A DNA stretch of 64,000 nt from a virus, in the IMG/VR virus record IMGVR_UViG_3300030104_001945, positions 1 to 64,000 of that record, one strand, 5' to 3'. The notes beneath the pieces are model-generated. The model worked only from the letters and a program-made list of their open reading frames with translations, was not told the DNA's origin and made no database searches. A program made the position numbers and the translations under genes. Every line of letters starts with the position of its first letter. Positions within the stretch are counted from its first letter, which is position 1. Shown here piece by piece: positions 11,412 through 58,141 of this stretch.

Positions 11412-11784
11412 AAAAGGAGGTAAAGCTCCAACACAAAAATATGCTAATGGCAGATGGGCAAAAGCTATATCTGACAGAAGTGGTTTAGAATTTCCTTACA
11501 ATGAAATGGTTAAGGAATGGACAGGGGCGTTAGTTCATACGTCAGAGTGGGAAGAAAAACAACCTCAACTTGATCCAATTGTATATACTGATGCGACAGC
11601 TTTAAAAAATCCTCGACCACCAGTAAATATGTTTACAGGGAATATTCCTGAACCTACAGGAGTTCCTAATCAAATAACGAATGTTTTTCCAGGCACATTT
11701 GGTGCTACAGGAATTTCATTCCCAATGTCTACAGGAGAACAAATAAATGCAAACATCGGAAACGTCACAGTTGTCATTAGCTGA
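11392..11784 (+). CDS. virion protein of the head-tail region, unknown
   Basis: 130 residues, overlapping the preceding gene by 20 bases and the next by 38. The N-terminus is basic and includes KYANGRWAKAISDRSGLEFPY; then a TSEWEEKQPQLDP segment and a Gly/Thr/Pro-rich C-terminal half. From memory, related proteins sit between gp4-like and gp10-like genes in phages of this type. Confidence 0.65.
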   Translation: MASISTKKGGKAPTQKYANGRWAKAISDRSGLEFPYNEMVKEWTGALVHTSEWEEKQPQLDPIVYTDATALKNPRPPVNMFTGNIPEPTGVPNQITNVFPGTFGATGISFPMSTGEQINANIGNVTVVIS

Positions 11785-12583
11785 CGAAGTTTATGATTTT
11801 AAAAAAGCAATAGTAATGATAGGAACCCCATGTTATGGCGGTCTTTTACATGAAGCTTATATGCACTCTTTTTTAAGAACTCAAAAAGAAGCTGAAAAAA
11901 AGGGATATAGACTTCATTTAAACTCAATGGGAAATGAAAGCTTAATAACTAGAGCTAGAAATACCATAGTTTCTCAATTTTTAAATCAAGAAAATCTAAC
12001 TCATTTATTATTTATCGATGCTGATATAGCTTGGCAAGCCGAAACTGTTACTCGTATGTTATCAGTAGATGAAGAAGTAGTAGCCGCTATATATCCCAGA
12101 AAAGGTTTAGAGTGGCAGCATGTAAAAAAGTATGTTAATTCTGCTCCAAATGATTTAGAAAATTTAGAACAAAAACTATTAGGTTATAATTTAAATTTTA
12201 AAGATCCACATAATATACCAATGTATCAAGGTGGATTTGTAGAAGTATTAGATGCAGCTACTGGTTTTATGATGATAAAAAGAGAAGCGATATTAAAAAT
12301 GATAGAAGCATACCCTGATTTAAAATATACATCAGATCAGATGTTAAATGGTAAATTATATGATAGTGATAATTGTTACGCTTTTTTTGATACTATGATT
12401 GATCCAGTAAGTAATAGATATTTAAGTGAAGATTATGCTTTTTGTCGTTTATGGCAAAAAATAGGAGGAAAAATATACGCAGATGTAGCGAGTTCATTAA
12501 CACATTATGGAACATATTCTTTTAAAGGAAATGTCTCGCATAAATTTGCAGAACAAGATAAGATAGAAGATAATGGCGACTAA
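11747..12583 (+). CDS. GT-A fold glycosyltransferase-like protein
   Basis: 278 residues. Begins its fold with AIVMIGTPCYGG, has LITRARNTIVSQFL, and the metal/nucleotide-sugar DxD motif FIDADIAW at D91-D93, followed by VVAAIYPRKG and a C-terminal SEDYAFCRLWQKIGGKIYADV, all typical of GT-A enzymes. It should transfer a sugar from a nucleotide-sugar. It lies inside the neck/tail gene run, overlapping both neighbours, so a virion or host-surface glycan is a likelier target than DNA. The ATG lies within the preceding gene; no strong Shine-Dalgarno sequence. Confidence 0.82.
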   Translation: MQTSETSQLSLADEVYDFKKAIVMIGTPCYGGLLHEAYMHSFLRTQKEAEKKGYRLHLNSMGNESLITRARNTIVSQFLNQENLTHLLFIDADIAWQAETVTRMLSVDEEVVAAIYPRKGLEWQHVKKYVNSAPNDLENLEQKLLGYNLNFKDPHNIPMYQGGFVEVLDAATGFMMIKREAILKMIEAYPDLKYTSDQMLNGKLYDSDNCYAFFDTMIDPVSNRYLSEDYAFCRLWQKIGGKIYADVASSLTHYGTYSFKGNVSHKFAEQDKIEDNGD

Positions 12584-42024: not shown

Positions 42025-42809
42025 AATATTTATTTTTTGACGTAGAAACAACAGGATTATGGAGAAGGGATTTGGCACCAACTGATCCTAAACAACCTAA
42101 AATAGTTCAAATAGCTGCTCAGTTAGCAAGTGAAGATGATAAAGTTACTGCACAACTAGCTTGTATAATTCAACCAGATAAATGGACTATTCCAAAAGAA
42201 GCATCAGATATTCATCACATAACTGATAATATAGCTTTGCAACACGGCGTTCCTCTGATAAATGTATTAGCTATGTTTAATTCTTTAGCAGCACAAGCTG
42301 ACGTATTAGTGGCTCACAATACATCATTTGATTTACAAATGGTATTAAGAGAATTTAATGCGATAGGAAAAAGTTTTAGAATTCCTAAAGAGCAACACTG
42401 TACGATGATGACTGCTAAAGATATTTTAAAATTAGAAAGTGATTTTGATGATTATAAGTTTCCTAAATTAGAAGAAACATATAAACATTTTCTAGGATCA
42501 GGAGGTTATCATAATTGGCACGATGCTTTAACTGATATAATAATATGCCGAATAATTTACTTCCACATGAAAGCGAAAGGAATAAAAATGGAAAAACCAC
42601 GTGCAATGCCTAAAGCATTAATTAAAAATCTTGACGAAAAAATATACAAAGAGTTTTTAAATCTTATAGAATCTATTAATGAAGATAATTTAAATGATTG
42701 GGAGAAAGGTTTTTTAAAAGATCAAAAAGAAAGACACGAAAAATATAAAGAAAAAATACTTATGAGTGATAAACAAATGAATATTTTAAGAAAGATGAAA
42801 GACAAATGA
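42021..42809 (+). CDS. DEDDh 3'-5' exonuclease (DnaQ-like)
   Basis: 262 residues from ATG 42021, with GGAG eight bases upstream. Exo I FFDVETTG (Asp, Glu), Exo II VAHNTSFDLQMV (Asp) and Exo III YHNWHDALTD (His, Asp) complete the DEDDh set. Removes 3' nucleotides from DNA or RNA, as in proofreading or RNase T-like trimming. The C-terminal ~70 residues are charged helices not typical of the fold. Confidence 0.9.
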   Translation: MKYLFFDVETTGLWRRDLAPTDPKQPKIVQIAAQLASEDDKVTAQLACIIQPDKWTIPKEASDIHHITDNIALQHGVPLINVLAMFNSLAAQADVLVAHNTSFDLQMVLREFNAIGKSFRIPKEQHCTMMTAKDILKLESDFDDYKFPKLEETYKHFLGSGGYHNWHDALTDIIICRIIYFHMKAKGIKMEKPRAMPKALIKNLDEKIYKEFLNLIESINEDNLNDWEKGFLKDQKERHEKYKEKILMSDKQMNILRKMKDK

Positions 42810-43756
42810 ACATTTTAGTAACAGGTTGTGCTGGTTTTGTAGGATCACATCTTACAGAGCATTTAGTTAATAGAGGGCATACTGTTTATGGTATAGATAA
42901 TTTATTAACTGGGCAAGAAAAAAATATAGGTAATATACATAGATTTATTGAGGGTGATATATCTAATTCTTCTGATATAAATAAAATAGATATGGGAGGT
43001 CCTATTGATCTCATTTATAATTTAGCTTGTCCTGCAAGTCCTGATCATTATATAAAACATTCTATAAAAACTTTAGACACTTGTTATACCGGTACTAAAA
43101 ATATTTTAGAGTTAGCTAAAACACATAATTCAATAGTTATTCATACTTCTACATCAGAAGTATATGGTAATCCTGATCATACACCTCAAGAAGAAGATTA
43201 TTATGGAAGTGTAAATTCTTTTGGACCACGAGCCTGTTATGATGAGGGAAAGAGAGTAGCAGAAGCATTAATTTATGAGTATATTAGATTATATAAATTA
43301 GACATCAAAGTAGCAAGATTATTTAATACTTATGGGCCTCGTATGTCTGTTAACGATGGACGTGTTGTATCTAATTTTATATGTGCTGCATTACAAGATA
43401 AAGAATTATTACTTTATGGAAATGGTATGCAATCTCGTTCTTTTTGTTATATCTCCGATACTATACACGCATTATTAGATTTAGCAGAAACTACTAAATT
43501 AAATAAACCTGTTAACATTGGTAATCCTGATGAGAAAAAAATATACAATATAGCAGAATTAATTATAAGAATGACTAGTTCTAAATCAGGAATAATGACA
43601 GTAGCACATAAAAAAGATGATCCATTACAACGATGTCCTAATATAGAAAGAATTAATATGTTAATAGGCTGGCACCCTAAAGTAACATTATCAGAGGGAC
43701 TAGAGAAAACCATAGAGTATTTTAGAGAATGTTTAACAAATCAAACACAAACGTAA
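42806..43756 (+). CDS. UDP-glucuronate decarboxylase/UDP-xylose synthase homologue
   Basis: 316 residues, an extended SDR. NAD-binding GCAGFVG at 7-13; catalytic TSTSEVYG (114-121) and Y145-x-x-x-K149 within CYDEGKR. NLACPASPDHY, IGxR-like FGPRACYDEGKRVAE, RLFNTYGPRM and DGRVVSNF agree closely with UXS enzymes, which oxidise and decarboxylate UDP-glucuronate to UDP-xylose. Related 4-epimerases lack several of these features. In this operon it could provide a pentose donor for the glycosyltransferase at 47338. Confidence 0.88.
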   Translation: MNILVTGCAGFVGSHLTEHLVNRGHTVYGIDNLLTGQEKNIGNIHRFIEGDISNSSDINKIDMGGPIDLIYNLACPASPDHYIKHSIKTLDTCYTGTKNILELAKTHNSIVIHTSTSEVYGNPDHTPQEEDYYGSVNSFGPRACYDEGKRVAEALIYEYIRLYKLDIKVARLFNTYGPRMSVNDGRVVSNFICAALQDKELLLYGNGMQSRSFCYISDTIHALLDLAETTKLNKPVNIGNPDEKKIYNIAELIIRMTSSKSGIMTVAHKKDDPLQRCPNIERINMLIGWHPKVTLSEGLEKTIEYFRECLTNQTQT

Positions 43757-45244: not shown

Positions 45245-45913
45245 ATGGATATAAAATTAAAATATTTAAATAATTTTGAAAAGAAAATAGATAATGATAT
45301 TTATAGTGAACCTAAATCTAAATTACATTATGGTGTAATAGAACCTCAAACTCAAAAATTTTTAGATACATTTGAAATTAAAGAAGATAAATCAGTTATA
45401 GATATAGGTTGTGGAGATGGATATTTTTTATCACTATTACAAAAAGCAGGGTTTAAAAATTTAGTTGGAGTAACTAAACATGATGAAGATATAAAAAATT
45501 GCAGTAACTATGGATTAAAAGATATTAGAAAAACTGATATGACTTTTACAGGGATAAAAGAAAATTTTGATGCTTTATGGTGTAGACATGTATTAGAACA
45601 TAGTCCATATCCTTATTTAACTTTACATGAATTTAATCGTTTAGTTAAAATGGGAGGTAATGCTTATGTAGAAGTTCCTGAAGCTGAGGGATATATTAAA
45701 CATGAAAATAATGCAAATCATTACTCTATGTTAACGAAAAGAAATTGGGTATCTTTAATTTTACGATGTGGTTTTGATATAAATAAAATACAAGATATTG
45801 ATTTAAGTATAAAAAATCCAGAATTTCAAGATGGGAATCCTTACCCAGAGCAATGGTGGGCTTTTTATTTAACTAAAACAGTCGAATTAAATTTTATGAA
45901 AGGAGAGTTATGA
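45245..45913 (+). CDS. class I SAM-dependent methyltransferase
   Basis: 222 residues. SAM-binding motif I VIDIGCGDGYFL, then a LWCRHVLEHSPYPYLTLHEFNRLVKMGGNAYVEVP core typical of Methyltransf_11/23-type enzymes. No DNA methylase catalytic motif (DPPY or PC) is seen, so a small molecule, sugar or protein substrate is likelier than a DNA base. In a DNA-modification operon it might methylate the attached group; inference. Confidence 0.82.
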   Translation: MDIKLKYLNNFEKKIDNDIYSEPKSKLHYGVIEPQTQKFLDTFEIKEDKSVIDIGCGDGYFLSLLQKAGFKNLVGVTKHDEDIKNCSNYGLKDIRKTDMTFTGIKENFDALWCRHVLEHSPYPYLTLHEFNRLVKMGGNAYVEVPEAEGYIKHENNANHYSMLTKRNWVSLILRCGFDINKIQDIDLSIKNPEFQDGNPYPEQWWAFYLTKTVELNFMKGEL

Positions 45914-46968
45914 AAGCAATAGGAAGTTATATATTTGCTGGTGGATTCACTATCGGCGTTAAAAAACATTTTGATATTGAAGCACATTTAGAAGGTGATG
46001 GATATGGAGCTGATACATTTAGTTTAAATTATCCAGAAATACCAGTTTTTGTTGGTCCAGAAGATTGGCCTACAGAAAAATATAAAGATAAAATAGATTT
46101 TATATATGGTAATCCTCCATGTGCTCCTTGGAGTACGTTAGGTTCTGGAAGTAAAGGTGCAGATGCATGGAAAACTGATCCTCGTATTAGTTGTTGGAAC
46201 GATGTATTTTCTTTACTTTATAAAATAAAACCAAAAGCTTTAGCTATTGAGTCAGTTCCTCGTGTTTATTCAGAAACAGGAGGTAGACCAATGATAATGG
46301 ATTTTACAAGAAAAGCTAATGAAGAAGGATATGCAGTTACTCATTTACTAATAGATGGTCAATATGCTGGACTTCCTCATTCAAGAAAAAGATTTTTTTT
46401 CATAGCGCATAAAGGAAATTTTAATCCCCCTGCTCCTAACTGGAATCCTGCGCCAACTGTAGGAGAAGTGTTAGATGAATTAAAAGCAGATGGAATTGAA
46501 GCAGGACACACAGCAACGTTAAGTGAAAATGAAATGAAATTAACTAAACTGGCTAAACCTGGAGAATCTTTAAGAAATATATGGGAAAGTTTAAACCCAC
46601 CAGAAACTTGGAAAAGGTCTACTAAAGGAAGAAAAGGAGTTATAGGTAGACCTCAATTTATGAAATGGAGATTAACTAGAGAACAGATAATGGGAGTTAT
46701 TGCTGGAAGTTTTTCTATACATCCAGAAGAAGATAGGCTTTTAGGAATACAAGAATTATGTGCTTTCTCTGGATATCCAACAGATTATAAATTTGCTGGA
46801 GCAAAATCAGGGTGGCCTAGTTTATTAGCTAGAGGAGTAATGCCTCCAGTAGGTGAATGGGTAGCTAGAAATGTAAAAACAATGATTGAGTCAAATCAAC
46901 CTTTCGAAGTTAATCATAAAATTATTGATTATCGTAAACCAACAACAGGAGATTTATTTAATGCTTAG
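45910..46968 (+). CDS. C5-cytosine DNA methyltransferase homologue
   Basis: 352 residues. Motif I-like YIFAGGFTIG, motif IV GNPPCAPWS with nucleophile Cys71, motif VI as ESV (E114) instead of the usual ENV, motif VIII GLPHSRKRFFFIA (R159, R161) and C-terminal GYPTDYKFAG ... ARGVMPPVGEW equivalent to motifs IX-X. It should methylate, or otherwise modify, C5 of cytosine. The changed VI and X motifs, next to a putative hydroxymethylase, make specialisation possible. Overlaps neighbours by 4-8 bases. Confidence 0.85.
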   Translation: MKAIGSYIFAGGFTIGVKKHFDIEAHLEGDGYGADTFSLNYPEIPVFVGPEDWPTEKYKDKIDFIYGNPPCAPWSTLGSGSKGADAWKTDPRISCWNDVFSLLYKIKPKALAIESVPRVYSETGGRPMIMDFTRKANEEGYAVTHLLIDGQYAGLPHSRKRFFFIAHKGNFNPPAPNWNPAPTVGEVLDELKADGIEAGHTATLSENEMKLTKLAKPGESLRNIWESLNPPETWKRSTKGRKGVIGRPQFMKWRLTREQIMGVIAGSFSIHPEEDRLLGIQELCAFSGYPTDYKFAGAKSGWPSLLARGVMPPVGEWVARNVKTMIESNQPFEVNHKIIDYRKPTTGDLFNA

Positions 46969-47341
46969 AGATATTGAAGAGTTCCATAAAAAATTTGGAT
47001 TTAAAAAAAGACAAGGTATCAAAAATAATAAAGATTTGGTAGACTTTCGGATTAAATTCTTAGAAGAAGAATTAAGAGAATTTAAAGAAGCAATTAAAGA
47101 AGAAGATGATGCGAAAGCATTAGATGCTTTAGTTGATTTAACTTATGTAGCTATAGGAACGGCTTATCTATTTGATTATCCTTTCTGGGTTGCATGGTCA
47201 GAAGTACAGAAAGCAAATATGGCAAAAGTAAGAAAAGAAAGTGAACGTTCTAAATTTGATGTAACTAAACCTAAGGGTTGGAAAGCACCTAATATAGAAC
47301 AAGTTCTTCACACATTTAAAAAATGGAGCGCATGGTCATGA
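46961..47341 (+). CDS. MazG-like nucleotide pyrophosphohydrolase
   Basis: 126 residues from ATG 46961, with AGGAG nine bases before. FLEEELREFKEAIKEEDDAKALDALVDLTYVAIGTAYL carries the E-E-x-x-E and D-x-x-x-D metal-binding pattern of the all-alpha NTP pyrophosphatase superfamily. It hydrolyses NTPs or dNTPs to NMP and PPi. Phages that replace cytosine need a dCTPase (T4 gp56 belongs to this superfamily), so dCTP removal is an attractive but unproven role. Confidence 0.85.
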   Translation: MLRDIEEFHKKFGFKKRQGIKNNKDLVDFRIKFLEEELREFKEAIKEEDDAKALDALVDLTYVAIGTAYLFDYPFWVAWSEVQKANMAKVRKESERSKFDVTKPKGWKAPNIEQVLHTFKKWSAWS

Positions 47342-48384
47342 AAGTATTAGTAACAGGATTTACTGCGAAAGGTATTGGCAGTGGTAAAAATGTATTAGAG
47401 ATTGCGACAGCAGCTAATTGTTTACCAAGAGCATTAAGAGAATGTGGAATAGAAGTTGATCATAAACCAGTTATACCTGGAGAAGATATATCAGAATATG
47501 ATAAAGTAGTTGTATTTGCTTTTGCTCCTAATTCTTTACCATCATCTTATTTATATGGAGGTCTTTATACTTTATTGAAAAGACCTGACGCATACATAGC
47601 ATTAGATGATTGGCAAACTAAAGATATAAAACAAGGGTGTGGTACTTTCGCACGTGATGGCCATTGGCGATTATGGAAAAGAGTAAGTAAAGCAGGTAAC
47701 TCTGTTGGTAAAAAATTCTTTAATGAAGCACAGCCCTATAAAAAAGAAATGGAAGATTTAATTACGCAATTAGCTTTCGAACAGTGGCCATATAGAGTTC
47801 TAGCACCAGTTTATAAGGGTGGAGACGTATCTCAACTAGGAATAGATTCCGCAGAAATTATACCATGGGATCCAACTCCTGTTACCGATAGCTATAAAGC
47901 AGGAAGTAAATATAATCAATCTTTATTCTCAAGAATAGATTCACATGATGGACCTAAAAATAAAGAATGGATAATGGCTTCGTTAATTCAAAAACAGAGT
48001 TGGTTTAAACGTCAACATTTCGAGTGGAAAGTAACTTGCTACGGTAATCCTAATTTAGGTCAAGAACGATTAACTGAACCAGAATTATATAATGAATACC
48101 TAAGAGTAAGAGGAATATTAATACCTCCTCATTATCATACGATAAAAGGTAGTGGTTGGTGGAGAGTTCGTTATGGCATGATAGCAGACGCAGGTTGTAT
48201 TGCTTATGGAGAACAAGAAGAAACTAAACTTTTTGGCGATGCATATAGAATTCATCATAGTGATATAGAAAAAATGAACGACAATGAATTAGATGATTTA
48301 GCTAAAGCGCAGAAAGAAGATTTTAATTCTACAGTATGGAATAAAAATAGATTAAATACGTTTATCGGAGATTACTTTTTATGA
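47338..48384 (+). CDS. GT-B-type glycosyltransferase, candidate DNA sugar transferase
   Basis: 348 residues. ATG 47338, with GGAG seven bases upstream, overlaps the MazG stop as ATGA. The N-terminal Rossmann-like start MKVLVTGFTAKGIGSGKN, YDKVVVFAFAPNSLPSSY and the C-terminal GSGWWRVRYGMIADAGCIAYGEQEETKLFG region, with its G-x-x-R...A-x-A-G pattern, fit a GT-B enzyme. It is flanked by MazG, a dNMP kinase and the hydroxymethylase homologue, so transfer of a sugar to hydroxymethylcytosine in DNA is a reasonable inference. The acceptor is not visible in the sequence. Confidence 0.72.
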   Translation: MKVLVTGFTAKGIGSGKNVLEIATAANCLPRALRECGIEVDHKPVIPGEDISEYDKVVVFAFAPNSLPSSYLYGGLYTLLKRPDAYIALDDWQTKDIKQGCGTFARDGHWRLWKRVSKAGNSVGKKFFNEAQPYKKEMEDLITQLAFEQWPYRVLAPVYKGGDVSQLGIDSAEIIPWDPTPVTDSYKAGSKYNQSLFSRIDSHDGPKNKEWIMASLIQKQSWFKRQHFEWKVTCYGNPNLGQERLTEPELYNEYLRVRGILIPPHYHTIKGSGWWRVRYGMIADAGCIAYGEQEETKLFGDAYRIHHSDIEKMNDNELDDLAKAQKEDFNSTVWNKNRLNTFIGDYFL

Positions 48385-48986
48385 AAGACAGGAAGAATAT
48401 AATTAGAGGTATAATTATAGTAGAAGGTGCAGACTGTACTGGTAAAACTACTCTAACAGATTTACTTCGTAAAAAGTTTAAAGCACGTTATATGCATTTA
48501 CGAATCCATAAAAGAATGGAGATATGGCATAAAGCAACTGTTCGTAGAGCAATAAGATTAGCTAAAGATGAGTTAGTTGTAATAGATAGGCATTGGCCAT
48601 CAGAAGAAGTTTATTCTTACGAAAGAGCAGATGGCCCTGAATATAATCCTATTAAGTTGTATAAAAAATTAAAGAAAGCAAATACGTTATATGTATGGTG
48701 TGCGCCAGAAGATAGTGCTAGAGTTATAAAAGTACATAGAAAAAAGAAAGAAGAACGACATGAAGAATATAGTGATATTACTCGAATTGTCGATAGATAC
48801 AAACGTTCATGGTATGGTTTAAACTATGAGCACGATAATTTTCTTAAATCTCTAGGAGAGTTAAGATGGCGAAAAAACTTCATACGATATGATGTTTTTA
48901 AAGAAGGTCATAAGATTGATAGTAAAACTTATGATATAATTAATCGATTACGATATTTGAGAGGAGAAGCAGTATGGACGGTTTAG
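48381..48986 (+). CDS. P-loop deoxynucleoside monophosphate kinase-like protein
   Basis: 201 residues. P-loop GADCTGKT at 16-23 and VVIDRHWPSEEVYSYERADG (DR-x-x motif) match thymidylate kinase-like enzymes; a lid region rich in Lys/Arg (HRKKKEERHEEY) follows. It would phosphorylate a dNMP to dNDP. Beside the hydroxymethylase homologue, a hydroxymethyl-dCMP kinase role (as T4 gp1 performs) is inferred. Confidence 0.82.
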   Translation: MKDRKNIIRGIIIVEGADCTGKTTLTDLLRKKFKARYMHLRIHKRMEIWHKATVRRAIRLAKDELVVIDRHWPSEEVYSYERADGPEYNPIKLYKKLKKANTLYVWCAPEDSARVIKVHRKKKEERHEEYSDITRIVDRYKRSWYGLNYEHDNFLKSLGELRWRKNFIRYDVFKEGHKIDSKTYDIINRLRYLRGEAVWTV

Positions 48987-49828
48987 CAGCTTTAGCAGCA
49001 GATAATGTTTGGAATGATGCTATTTTAGATATTCAAGGTGGAGTAGAATCCGCACCTCGTGGTTTAGTAACACGAGAAAAAATAAATCATACAACGATGT
49101 GCGATATGAGATATCCTATCGTTACTAACACGAGAAGATTATTGGGTTATAAGTTTATGATTCAAGAAGCTATTTGGATATTAAGAGGGGATAATAGATT
49201 AAGTACAATAGAACCTTACTCTAAGATGATTGGTAAATTTAGTGATGATAAATATTTCTTTCGAGGTGCATATGGTCCTAAAATTATAGATCAACTTCAA
49301 TATATATGTAAGTCATTAAAAGAAGATAGAAACACGAGACAAGCAGTTATAAATATTTGGAGAGAAAGTCCTCATGATACTAACGATGTACCTTGTACTG
49401 TATCTTTTCAATTTTTAATTCGTCAAGATAAATTACATATCATAGCTAATATGCGTTCAAACGATTTGTGGTTAGGTTGGCCTTATGATAATTTTAATTT
49501 TTCTATGCTTGGCGCATACGTTGCTTTATTACTATATGATATTTATAAAGTAGAAGTAGGATTAGGAATAACAACTATTAATGCTGGTTCACGTCATTTA
49601 TATAAACCAAATTTTGAGTCAGCAGATATGTGTACTCGTTCTAATTATGAAGATTATGTGAACTATAAACCATTGAATTTAAAGGATTATAGTAGTGCAG
49701 AAGATTTCTTAGAGCATTTAGAATTTGTATCTTTAGATAAAGGTCAAATTAACGAAATGAAAGTAAAAGCATTAGACCGTGAATATGGAAAAGGATTTGC
49801 CCATGAACTTTTCAACAAGGCCAAGTAA
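48974..49828 (+). CDS. dCMP hydroxymethylase (thymidylate synthase fold)
   Basis: 284 residues. Catalytic Cys141 in VPCTVSFQF, phosphate-binding RS at 161-162 in MRSNDLWLGWPYD and HLY at 208-210. The base-specificity residue, Asn177 in E. coli thymidylate synthase, is Asp172 here; the Cys-to-Asp distance of 31 equals that in both E. coli TS (146/177) and T4 gp42 (148/179). Asn-to-Asp at this site is the known mark of dCMP hydroxymethylases, which use methylene-tetrahydrofolate and water to make hydroxymethyl-dCMP. A divergent thymidylate synthase is the alternative. Confidence 0.85.
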   Translation: MDGLAALAADNVWNDAILDIQGGVESAPRGLVTREKINHTTMCDMRYPIVTNTRRLLGYKFMIQEAIWILRGDNRLSTIEPYSKMIGKFSDDKYFFRGAYGPKIIDQLQYICKSLKEDRNTRQAVINIWRESPHDTNDVPCTVSFQFLIRQDKLHIIANMRSNDLWLGWPYDNFNFSMLGAYVALLLYDIYKVEVGLGITTINAGSRHLYKPNFESADMCTRSNYEDYVNYKPLNLKDYSSAEDFLEHLEFVSLDKGQINEMKVKALDREYGKGFAHELFNKAK

Positions 49829-50264
49829 GCACGAAACTTTTTTAGAAATTGCTAAGACTGTCTCGGAACAAGCAACATGCATCCGGCGTAATGTTGGATG
49901 TGTGTTAGTTAATTCTAAAAATCATATTCTTGCAACTGGATATAATGGAGTTCCTGCAGGAGCAGTGCATTGTTTAGATTTACCTTGTAGTGGAGCAGAG
50001 TTTCCATCAGGAGAAGGATTAAATTCTTGCGAAGCGATTCACGCAGAACAAAACGCATTACTTCAATGTAAAGATATTTATGATATTGAAAAATGTTATT
50101 GTACAGTAAGTCCGTGTATGACGTGTGTAAAATTATTATTAAATACTTCTTGTAGTATTTTAATTTTTCCTACTTTATATACAGACGTAGAGCCATTAGA
50201 ACTTTGGAAAAAATCAGAAAGAGAGTATATTATTTATGAACGACCTATTCAAACCCGCCAGTAA
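49803..50264 (+). CDS. dCMP deaminase
   Basis: 153 residues; ATG 49803 preferred over an in-frame ATG at 49779 because AAAGG lies at a good distance. Zinc site CEAIHAEQNAL (His, Glu) and SPCMTC (two Cys) is complete, and CVLVNSKNHILATGYNGVPAGAVHC is the family N-terminus. Converts dCMP to dUMP for dTTP synthesis, and lowers unmodified dCMP pools. Overlaps the hydroxymethylase by 26 bases. Confidence 0.93.
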   Translation: MNFSTRPSKHETFLEIAKTVSEQATCIRRNVGCVLVNSKNHILATGYNGVPAGAVHCLDLPCSGAEFPSGEGLNSCEAIHAEQNALLQCKDIYDIEKCYCTVSPCMTCVKLLLNTSCSILIFPTLYTDVEPLELWKKSEREYIIYERPIQTRQ

Positions 50265-57473: not shown

Positions 57474-57650
57474 ATGTTAAAAGTTATAGCAGTATTTAGT
57501 GTTAGTATAACAATGTCGTTATCAATATATTTATTTAGTTATGATATATTTAATATCGCTCACGTAGCCTGGATTCATTATATTATACCCTTCACTGTCG
57601 GTGTAGTATTCGCAGCAAGTAGTATAATGATGTATGTAGATAGTCAGTGA
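57474..57650 (+). CDS. 58-residue two-helix membrane protein
   Basis: ATG 57474 with AGAAAGGAAAAT upstream. Two hydrophobic segments (VIAVFSVSITMSLSIYLFSY and YIIPFTVGVVFAASSIMMYV) joined by a short loop. Early membrane protein of unknown role. TGA overlaps the next GTG start. Confidence 0.65.
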   Translation: MLKVIAVFSVSITMSLSIYLFSYDIFNIAHVAWIHYIIPFTVGVVFAASSIMMYVDSQ

Positions 57651-58141
57651 ATATATTTTATTTACACTCTCACCCTTTAGTTGCAGCACATTATCATTGC
57701 GATAAGCACGTACCGAAGATGATTTTAGAGTCAGCTCAAATGTTAAGTATAGTCGCACGTTCTAATGGCTTTGACGTTGGCTATAAGATGAATATCAATG
57801 GCGCTTTCTCCAAGCATCCAGCTACTTTATGGACAGGTCAATCACGTAGGCATTACGATTTCTTATGCGAATTAGGTGATTATTTATGTGACGAGTTTTA
57901 TATGCGATTTAATTCTAAAGAACATAAAACTAAATCCCTTATTGCAGAACTTACTGCTGATGATATACGCCAAAAAATACCAGATACTGGTTGGCATCCT
58001 CCACCTCAATGTATGCCAGAGCAATATAAAGGCGTAGATCCTGTAGAGGCTTACAGAAAGTATTATCAAGCAGAAAAATCTTATTTCGCTAAATGGAATA
58101 AAGGTCGTAACGCACCATATTGGTGGGTGGATATAGAATAA
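57647..58141 (+). CDS. conserved phage protein (DKHVPKM type), unknown
   Basis: 164 residues, GTG start. MNIFYLHSHPLVAAHYHCDKHVPKMILESAQMLS, HPATLWTGQSRRHYDFLCELGDYL, and PPPQCMPEQYKGVDPVEAYRKYYQAEK. From memory, this is a very widespread phage protein of unknown function. The many conserved His, Asp and Lys residues suggest an enzyme. Confidence 0.8.
   Translation: MNIFYLHSHPLVAAHYHCDKHVPKMILESAQMLSIVARSNGFDVGYKMNINGAFSKHPATLWTGQSRRHYDFLCELGDYLCDEFYMRFNSKEHKTKSLIAELTADDIRQKIPDTGWHPPPQCMPEQYKGVDPVEAYRKYYQAEKSYFAKWNKGRNAPYWWVDIE

Follow-up and report, generated by a model that had tools for sequence, protein, structure and literature searches.

A phage UDP-xylose synthase that may supply a pathway to xylosyl-hydroxymethylcytosine DNA

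A predicted pathway for the xylosylation of phage DNA

The DNA analysed here (hereafter, the window) is a stretch of 64,000 nucleotides that makes up nearly the whole of a 64,233-bp IMG/VR virus record, and it carries the gene for a putative UDP-xylose synthase (UXS). Our preferred reading, which we regard as fairly probable, is that UXS supplies a DNA-modification pathway giving xylosyl-hydroxymethylcytosine DNA. In the proposed pathway, a MazG-like enzyme would lower dCTP, a thymidylate synthase-family protein (P0003) would convert dCMP to 5-hydroxymethyl-dCMP, a kinase encoded from position 48381 would carry this nucleotide towards the triphosphate, and a PolA-type polymerase would incorporate hydroxymethylcytosine in the phage DNA. 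UXS would make UDP-xylose by decarboxylating UDP-glucuronate of the host. After replication, the xylose would be transferred to the hydroxymethyl group by P0002, which is predicted to be of the GT-B type and to fold like the T4 beta-glucosyltransferase (beta-GT); the resulting coat of xylose would shield the phage DNA against restriction and Cas nucleases. The basis of this pathway in the data consists of the genes, their families, signature residues, a predicted fold and conserved linkage, and we infer each of the enzyme activities, as well as that P0002 uses UDP-xylose, that the sugar is attached to the hydroxymethyl group and that it protects the DNA.

The UXS gene

The product of the gene, P0001 (positions 42806 to 43756, + strand), is a protein of 316 amino acids with an ATG start, and its coordinates are those given in a first-pass annotation, which had noticed UXS motifs in this ORF and called it a UXS homologue. 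All five of the motifs quoted there are present in the translation, and the homology is borne out by sequence comparison. In a phmmer search of all PDB chains, the top matches were human UXS1 (E 7.5e-90 to 5e-89, over residues 2-313), by far the closest of the extended SDR enzymes; matches to other families, among them Pal, dTDP-glucose dehydratase, GalE and ArnA, began at E 3.5e-33. Judged on these alignments, the resemblance of P0001 to UXS1 is no chance match. The catalytic-triad and signature residues of human UXS1 are A79, Y84, T118, S119, E120, R144, Y147, K151, N176 and R277 (PMC12820599), and all ten are retained in P0001 (A77, Y82, T116, S117, E118, R142, Y145, K149, N174 and R276); the signature Ser, Glu, Tyr, Lys and Arg are conserved, too, in five further viral UXS sequences. 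Relatives carry UXS down to 50% identity, and the dN/dS of P0001 against its relatives is 0.08-0.26. The gene overlaps the preceding exonuclease gene by 4 bp and the following helicase gene by 28 bp, an arrangement as in one operon. We are thus highly confident in predicting that P0001 is a UDP-xylose synthase (UDP-glucuronate decarboxylase). The scan of window proteins brought up no UDP-glucose dehydrogenase, so that UDP-glucuronate from the host is assumed to be the substrate.

The downstream gene module

Downstream of UXS, and in the same direction, lie genes for a helicase, a SAM methyltransferase (45245-45913; PF13489), a C5-cytosine methyltransferase homologue (45910-46968; PF00145, E 5e-28), a MazG-like nucleotide pyrophosphohydrolase (46949-47341; PF01503, phrog_671), P0002 (47338-48384; 348 aa), a thymidylate kinase-like protein (48381-48986; phrog_761, E 7e-13), P0003 (48974-49828), a dCMP deaminase (49779-50264; PF00383, phrog_174) and a polymerase whose assignment to the PolA type rests on its sequence. 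The genes of most interest here are found 3.6-6 kb downstream of UXS. P0002 is a predicted GT-B DNA glycosyltransferase and P0003 a predicted dCMP 5-hydroxymethylase; the MazG homologue is a candidate dCTP-removing enzyme and the kinase a candidate hydroxymethyl-dCMP kinase, the substrates of both being putative. T4 has a gene set that makes hydroxymethyl-dCTP; the module in the window resembles this set, which, by analogy, the MazG homologue and the kinase would complete. The C5-cytosine methyltransferase homologue, which is conserved with P0002 in several lineages, is hard to account for if C5 of cytosine already carries a hydroxymethyl group: it is retained beside P0002, though hydroxymethylated cytosine should be no substrate for it.

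Linkage of UXS to the module and the glycan alternative

The gene order exonuclease, UXS, helicase, (methyltransferase), C5 methyltransferase, MazG, P0002, kinase, P0003, deaminase and PolA is retained in relatives with a UXS 50-97% identical to P0001. Some of them lack the short methyltransferase, and in one lineage no deaminase could be detected. The short methyltransferase is a variable member of the module, and was not found by tblastn in two relatives (L090 and L094) or in a sister clade (L204-L235 and L242) that has the same module, including P0002, and lacks UXS. All close relatives in which the site is covered have both UXS and P0002. Among 53 hydroxymethylase loci that extend 6.5 kb or more upstream, UXS and P0002 occurred together in nine, neither was present in 44 and in none was UXS found alone; as the loci are related, the count does not represent 53 independent events. 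Many members of the sister clade have a gene of the UDP-glucose/GDP-mannose dehydrogenase family downstream of polA; in one of them (L204, 12702-14721) this gene is followed by a gene for NAD synthase.

The first-pass annotation had preferred DNA decoration to a glycan on account of the position of the gene. Position alone is a weak argument, because in another phage, L078 (4633-10502), UXS adjoins a homologue of the window's GT-A gene, terL and two more glycosyltransferase-like genes; here, UDP-xylose is more likely to serve a virion or surface glycan. In a cyanophage record, moreover, UXS lies within a polysaccharide cluster, and thus a phage UXS by itself is no sign of DNA modification. The preference for DNA can nevertheless be kept on other grounds, namely the predicted dCMP hydroxymethylase, the protein with a beta-GT-like fold and the comparative genomics. 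That UXS instead feeds a glycan, with the GT-A enzyme of the window (11747-12583) or a host enzyme xylosylating a virion protein or the host surface, is in our estimate unlikely. The GT-A gene is indeed present in all three UXS-bearing relatives of sufficient length. However, it does not track UXS, since it occurs in five of six sister-clade contigs, all of which are without a close UXS, and a GT-A homologue was not found in the contig of a phage (L256; see below) in which UXS is present; in addition, UXS in the window sits within an operon for replication and hydroxymethylation.

P0002 is predicted to be a DNA glycosyltransferase

P0002 matches no family of Pfam or NCBIfam, nothing in the PDB is significantly similar to it in sequence, and its sole family assignment is to phrog_14998, the function of which is unannotated. 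An AlphaFold2 model was built from 13 homologues (pLDDT 78, pTM 0.78). Foldseek placed the T4 DNA beta-GT first among the matches to this model (E 2.6e-5, probability 1.0), as did VIA-align (Z 18.6, 3.9 A, 295 residues aligned), with other GT-B enzymes at Z 16.2 or below and the T4 alpha-GT at Z 14.8. The model thus predicts a GT-B fold most like that of T4 beta-GT; a shared fold alone is no proof of function. In T4 beta-GT, D100 is catalytic and R269 binds the donor. D91 and R276 of P0002 are invariant in 11 diverse homologues, and from the topology and weak alignments we infer that they correspond to these two residues. At the level of sequence, beta-GT was not among the phmmer matches of P0002 in the PDB, and a profile-profile alignment of the two covered 38 columns with a probability of 2.9%, which is not significant; a profile of the P0002 family matched nothing in T4 or RB69 at E values up to 1, in a search run without a positive control. 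We also considered whether P0002 could be a Tet-associated glycosyltransferase (TAGT). The TAGT enzymes are of the GT-A type (PMC13216743), and this assignment is ruled against by the GT-B model and by the lack of any Pfam match, and hence of one to TAGT. P0002 is in our view likely to be a glycosyltransferase of hydroxymethylated cytosine.

Sugar-supply genes beside P0002 homologues in other phages

Homologues of P0002 elsewhere are found next to other sugar-supply genes. A gene for UDP-galactopyranose mutase adjoins the homologue in the Aeromonas phage phiAS4, in FBB1, DSL-LC01 and C48C1 and in contigs that include L253, L254, L255, L257 and L258; in DSL-LC01, it lies between two P0002 paralogues. 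Where this mutase is the neighbour, the DNA sugar would be expected to be a hexose or a furanose. The Gordonia phage GodonK, too, has a P0002 homologue. In the Gualtarvirus phage Rgz1, the neighbours are genes for an arabinose-5-phosphate isomerase and a nucleotidyltransferase, and the same layout is seen in PSTRCR_121. In C48C1 (L109, OQ984149.1; 3586-7033), the P0002 homologue is located between a Tet_JBP gene, directly upstream, and the UDP-galactopyranose mutase gene, an arrangement that suggests a TET-made hydroxymethylcytosine bearing a furanose. The best independent evidence for a P0002-type enzyme partnered with UDP-xylose comes from an unrelated phage (L256, 7941-15189), in which one cluster holds UDP-glucose dehydrogenase (UGD) and UXS together with a C5 methyltransferase, a gene of the dUTPase_2/MazG type and two paralogues of the P0002 type; here UGD and UXS would form a full route from UDP-glucose to UDP-xylose.

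The P0002-type enzymes need not use UDP-xylose, as P0002 is present in the sister clade and UXS is not. The DNA could be glycosylated without xylose, either because P0002 uses host UDP-glucose or because a host 4-epimerase converts UDP-xylose to UDP-arabinose; we find this rather unlikely. The first variant is in keeping with the sister clade and with T4 beta-GT, the donor of which is UDP-glucose, but it would leave UXS without a role in a module that retains it. For the second, Sinorhizobium is known to reach UDP-arabinose through UXS and UXE (cited in PMC6024577); in the window, however, we saw a single gene of the UXS/epimerase type, which speaks against it. That the sugar on the DNA is xylose, and no other, seems to us somewhat probable. 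Wider in scope is the proposal that the P0002 type (phrog_14998) represents a new family of phage DNA glycosyltransferases, in which the sugar placed on 5-hydroxymethylcytosine is set by a swappable neighbouring gene (xylose through UXS here, and elsewhere probably a furanose through UDP-galactopyranose mutase, or arabinose), hence xylosyl-hydroxymethylcytosine DNA in this phage; for this proposal as a whole we judge the chances to be even.

A different combination is seen in the Pseudomonas phage QdP_Psa3 (L106, PV055685.1; 2691-12489), where a UXS gene (39-42% identity) occurs with genes for a UDP-glucose dehydrogenase, a kinase, a nucleotidyltransferase and a homologue of thymidylate synthase that is of the Asn (dUMP) type, in a stretch without P0002 and without the GT-A gene; QdP_Psa3 is possibly a phage with pentosylated 5-hydroxymethyluracil.

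P0003 is a predicted dCMP hydroxymethylase

The best PDB match of P0003 is MilA, a CMP 5-hydroxymethylase (E 1e-18), and the best thymidylate synthase follows at 9e-13. P0003 has an Asp (D172) at the position of Asn177 in E. coli ThyA, as well as a PCT motif with the catalytic Cys and an RSND motif, all as in T4 gp42; the Asp is common to T4 gp42, MilA and the homologues from P0002-bearing phages, and Asn is found at this position in the SPO1-like SBSphiC and in QdP_Psa3. RB69_048 and the Gualtarvirus phages have RSQN instead of RSND, and the RB69 enzyme is of the 5-hydroxy-dCMP synthase type, its relatives being known to make 5-hydroxy-dCMP (PMC13390438). The predicted product of P0003 is therefore 5-hydroxymethyl-dCMP, given that MilA is the closest match, that Asp replaces Asn and that the motif is RSND and not RSQN. 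We hold this prediction with moderate confidence, because a tree of the thymidylate synthase family, which had long branches and weak support at the deep nodes, could not place P0003 relative to T4 gp42. That P0003 is a plain thymidylate synthase or an RB69-like enzyme, any sugar then being on another base or linkage, is quite improbable: the family is named thymidylate synthase in PHROGs, related enzymes do make 5-hydroxy-dCMP in RB69 and the deep nodes of the tree are weak, but the three features just listed count against it. With good confidence, we expect the phage DNA to contain hydroxymethylated cytosine.

Comparison with known systems

The window phage resembles T4 in having a predicted hydroxymethylase with the diagnostic Asp and RSND (gp42), a nucleotide kinase (gp1), a candidate dCTP-removing enzyme and a GT-B enzyme predicted to fold like beta-GT. 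It differs from T4 in its predicted own supply of the sugar donor through UXS, in its PolA-type polymerase, in the presence of a C5 methyltransferase in the module and in that sequence searches with P0002 gave no significant match to beta-GT. In RB69 and Mosigvirus, arabinose is found on phage cytosine and has now been placed on 5-hydroxycytosine (PMC6024577; PMC13390438). The likeness here lies in an enzyme of the thymidylate synthase family, in sugar-supply genes nearby and in a pentose on cytosine, which for the window phage is a prediction, and Rgz1 combines RB69-like supply genes with a P0002 homologue; the differences are the 5-hydroxy-dCMP synthase (RSQN) of RB69 and its isomerase/NTP-transferase set. 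In the Shewanella phage Thanatos, cytosine bears an apparent deoxypentose, 'putatively xylose', and TH1_063 converts xylose-1-phosphate to UDP-xylose in vitro (PMC12838424). Thanatos would share with the window phage a pentose-type modification of cytosine, the implication of UDP-xylose, a dCTPase, a dCMP deaminase and a thymidylate synthase-family enzyme, but its UDP-xylose is made by a pyrophosphorylase and not by a UXS, and its sugar is apparently a deoxypentose. Some likeness to TET-associated hypermodification is also apparent, given the C48C1 homologue beside Tet_JBP and the C5 methyltransferase of the window module, but a single 2OG oxygenase was seen in the window, and it belongs to PF13759 and not to Tet_JBP.

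The idea, raised in the first-pass annotation, that a xylosylated base in phage DNA would be new has to be narrowed: pentoses on phage cytosine are known from RB69, Mosigvirus and Thanatos, but xylose itself has been shown on no phage base in the accessible literature. In the open-access literature, we found no UXS supplying a DNA sugar, no xylosyl-hydroxymethylcytosine and no description of the P0002 family as DNA glycosyltransferases. The sugars on phage DNA determine which restriction, CRISPR and glycosylase defences succeed. If our preferred reading, that UXS feeds xylosyl-hydroxymethylcytosine DNA, is correct, xylose made by decarboxylation would join the known DNA sugars, and the unannotated P0002 family, with members in many uncultured phages as well as in those of Aeromonas, Gordonia, Providencia, Morganella and Erwinia, would gain a testable activity. 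It would also suggest that phages vary the coat on their DNA by exchanging the sugar-supply gene that lies next to a common transferase.

One further gene in the window (57647-58141) matches pyrimidine dimer DNA glycosylase (PF03013) weakly and below the cutoff, and the hydroxymethylase-bearing phages DSL-LC01 and ct3Et533 have genes with an annotation as pyrimidine dimer or G:T/U DNA glycosylase; the PF03013-like product might act in the repair or protection of modified DNA.
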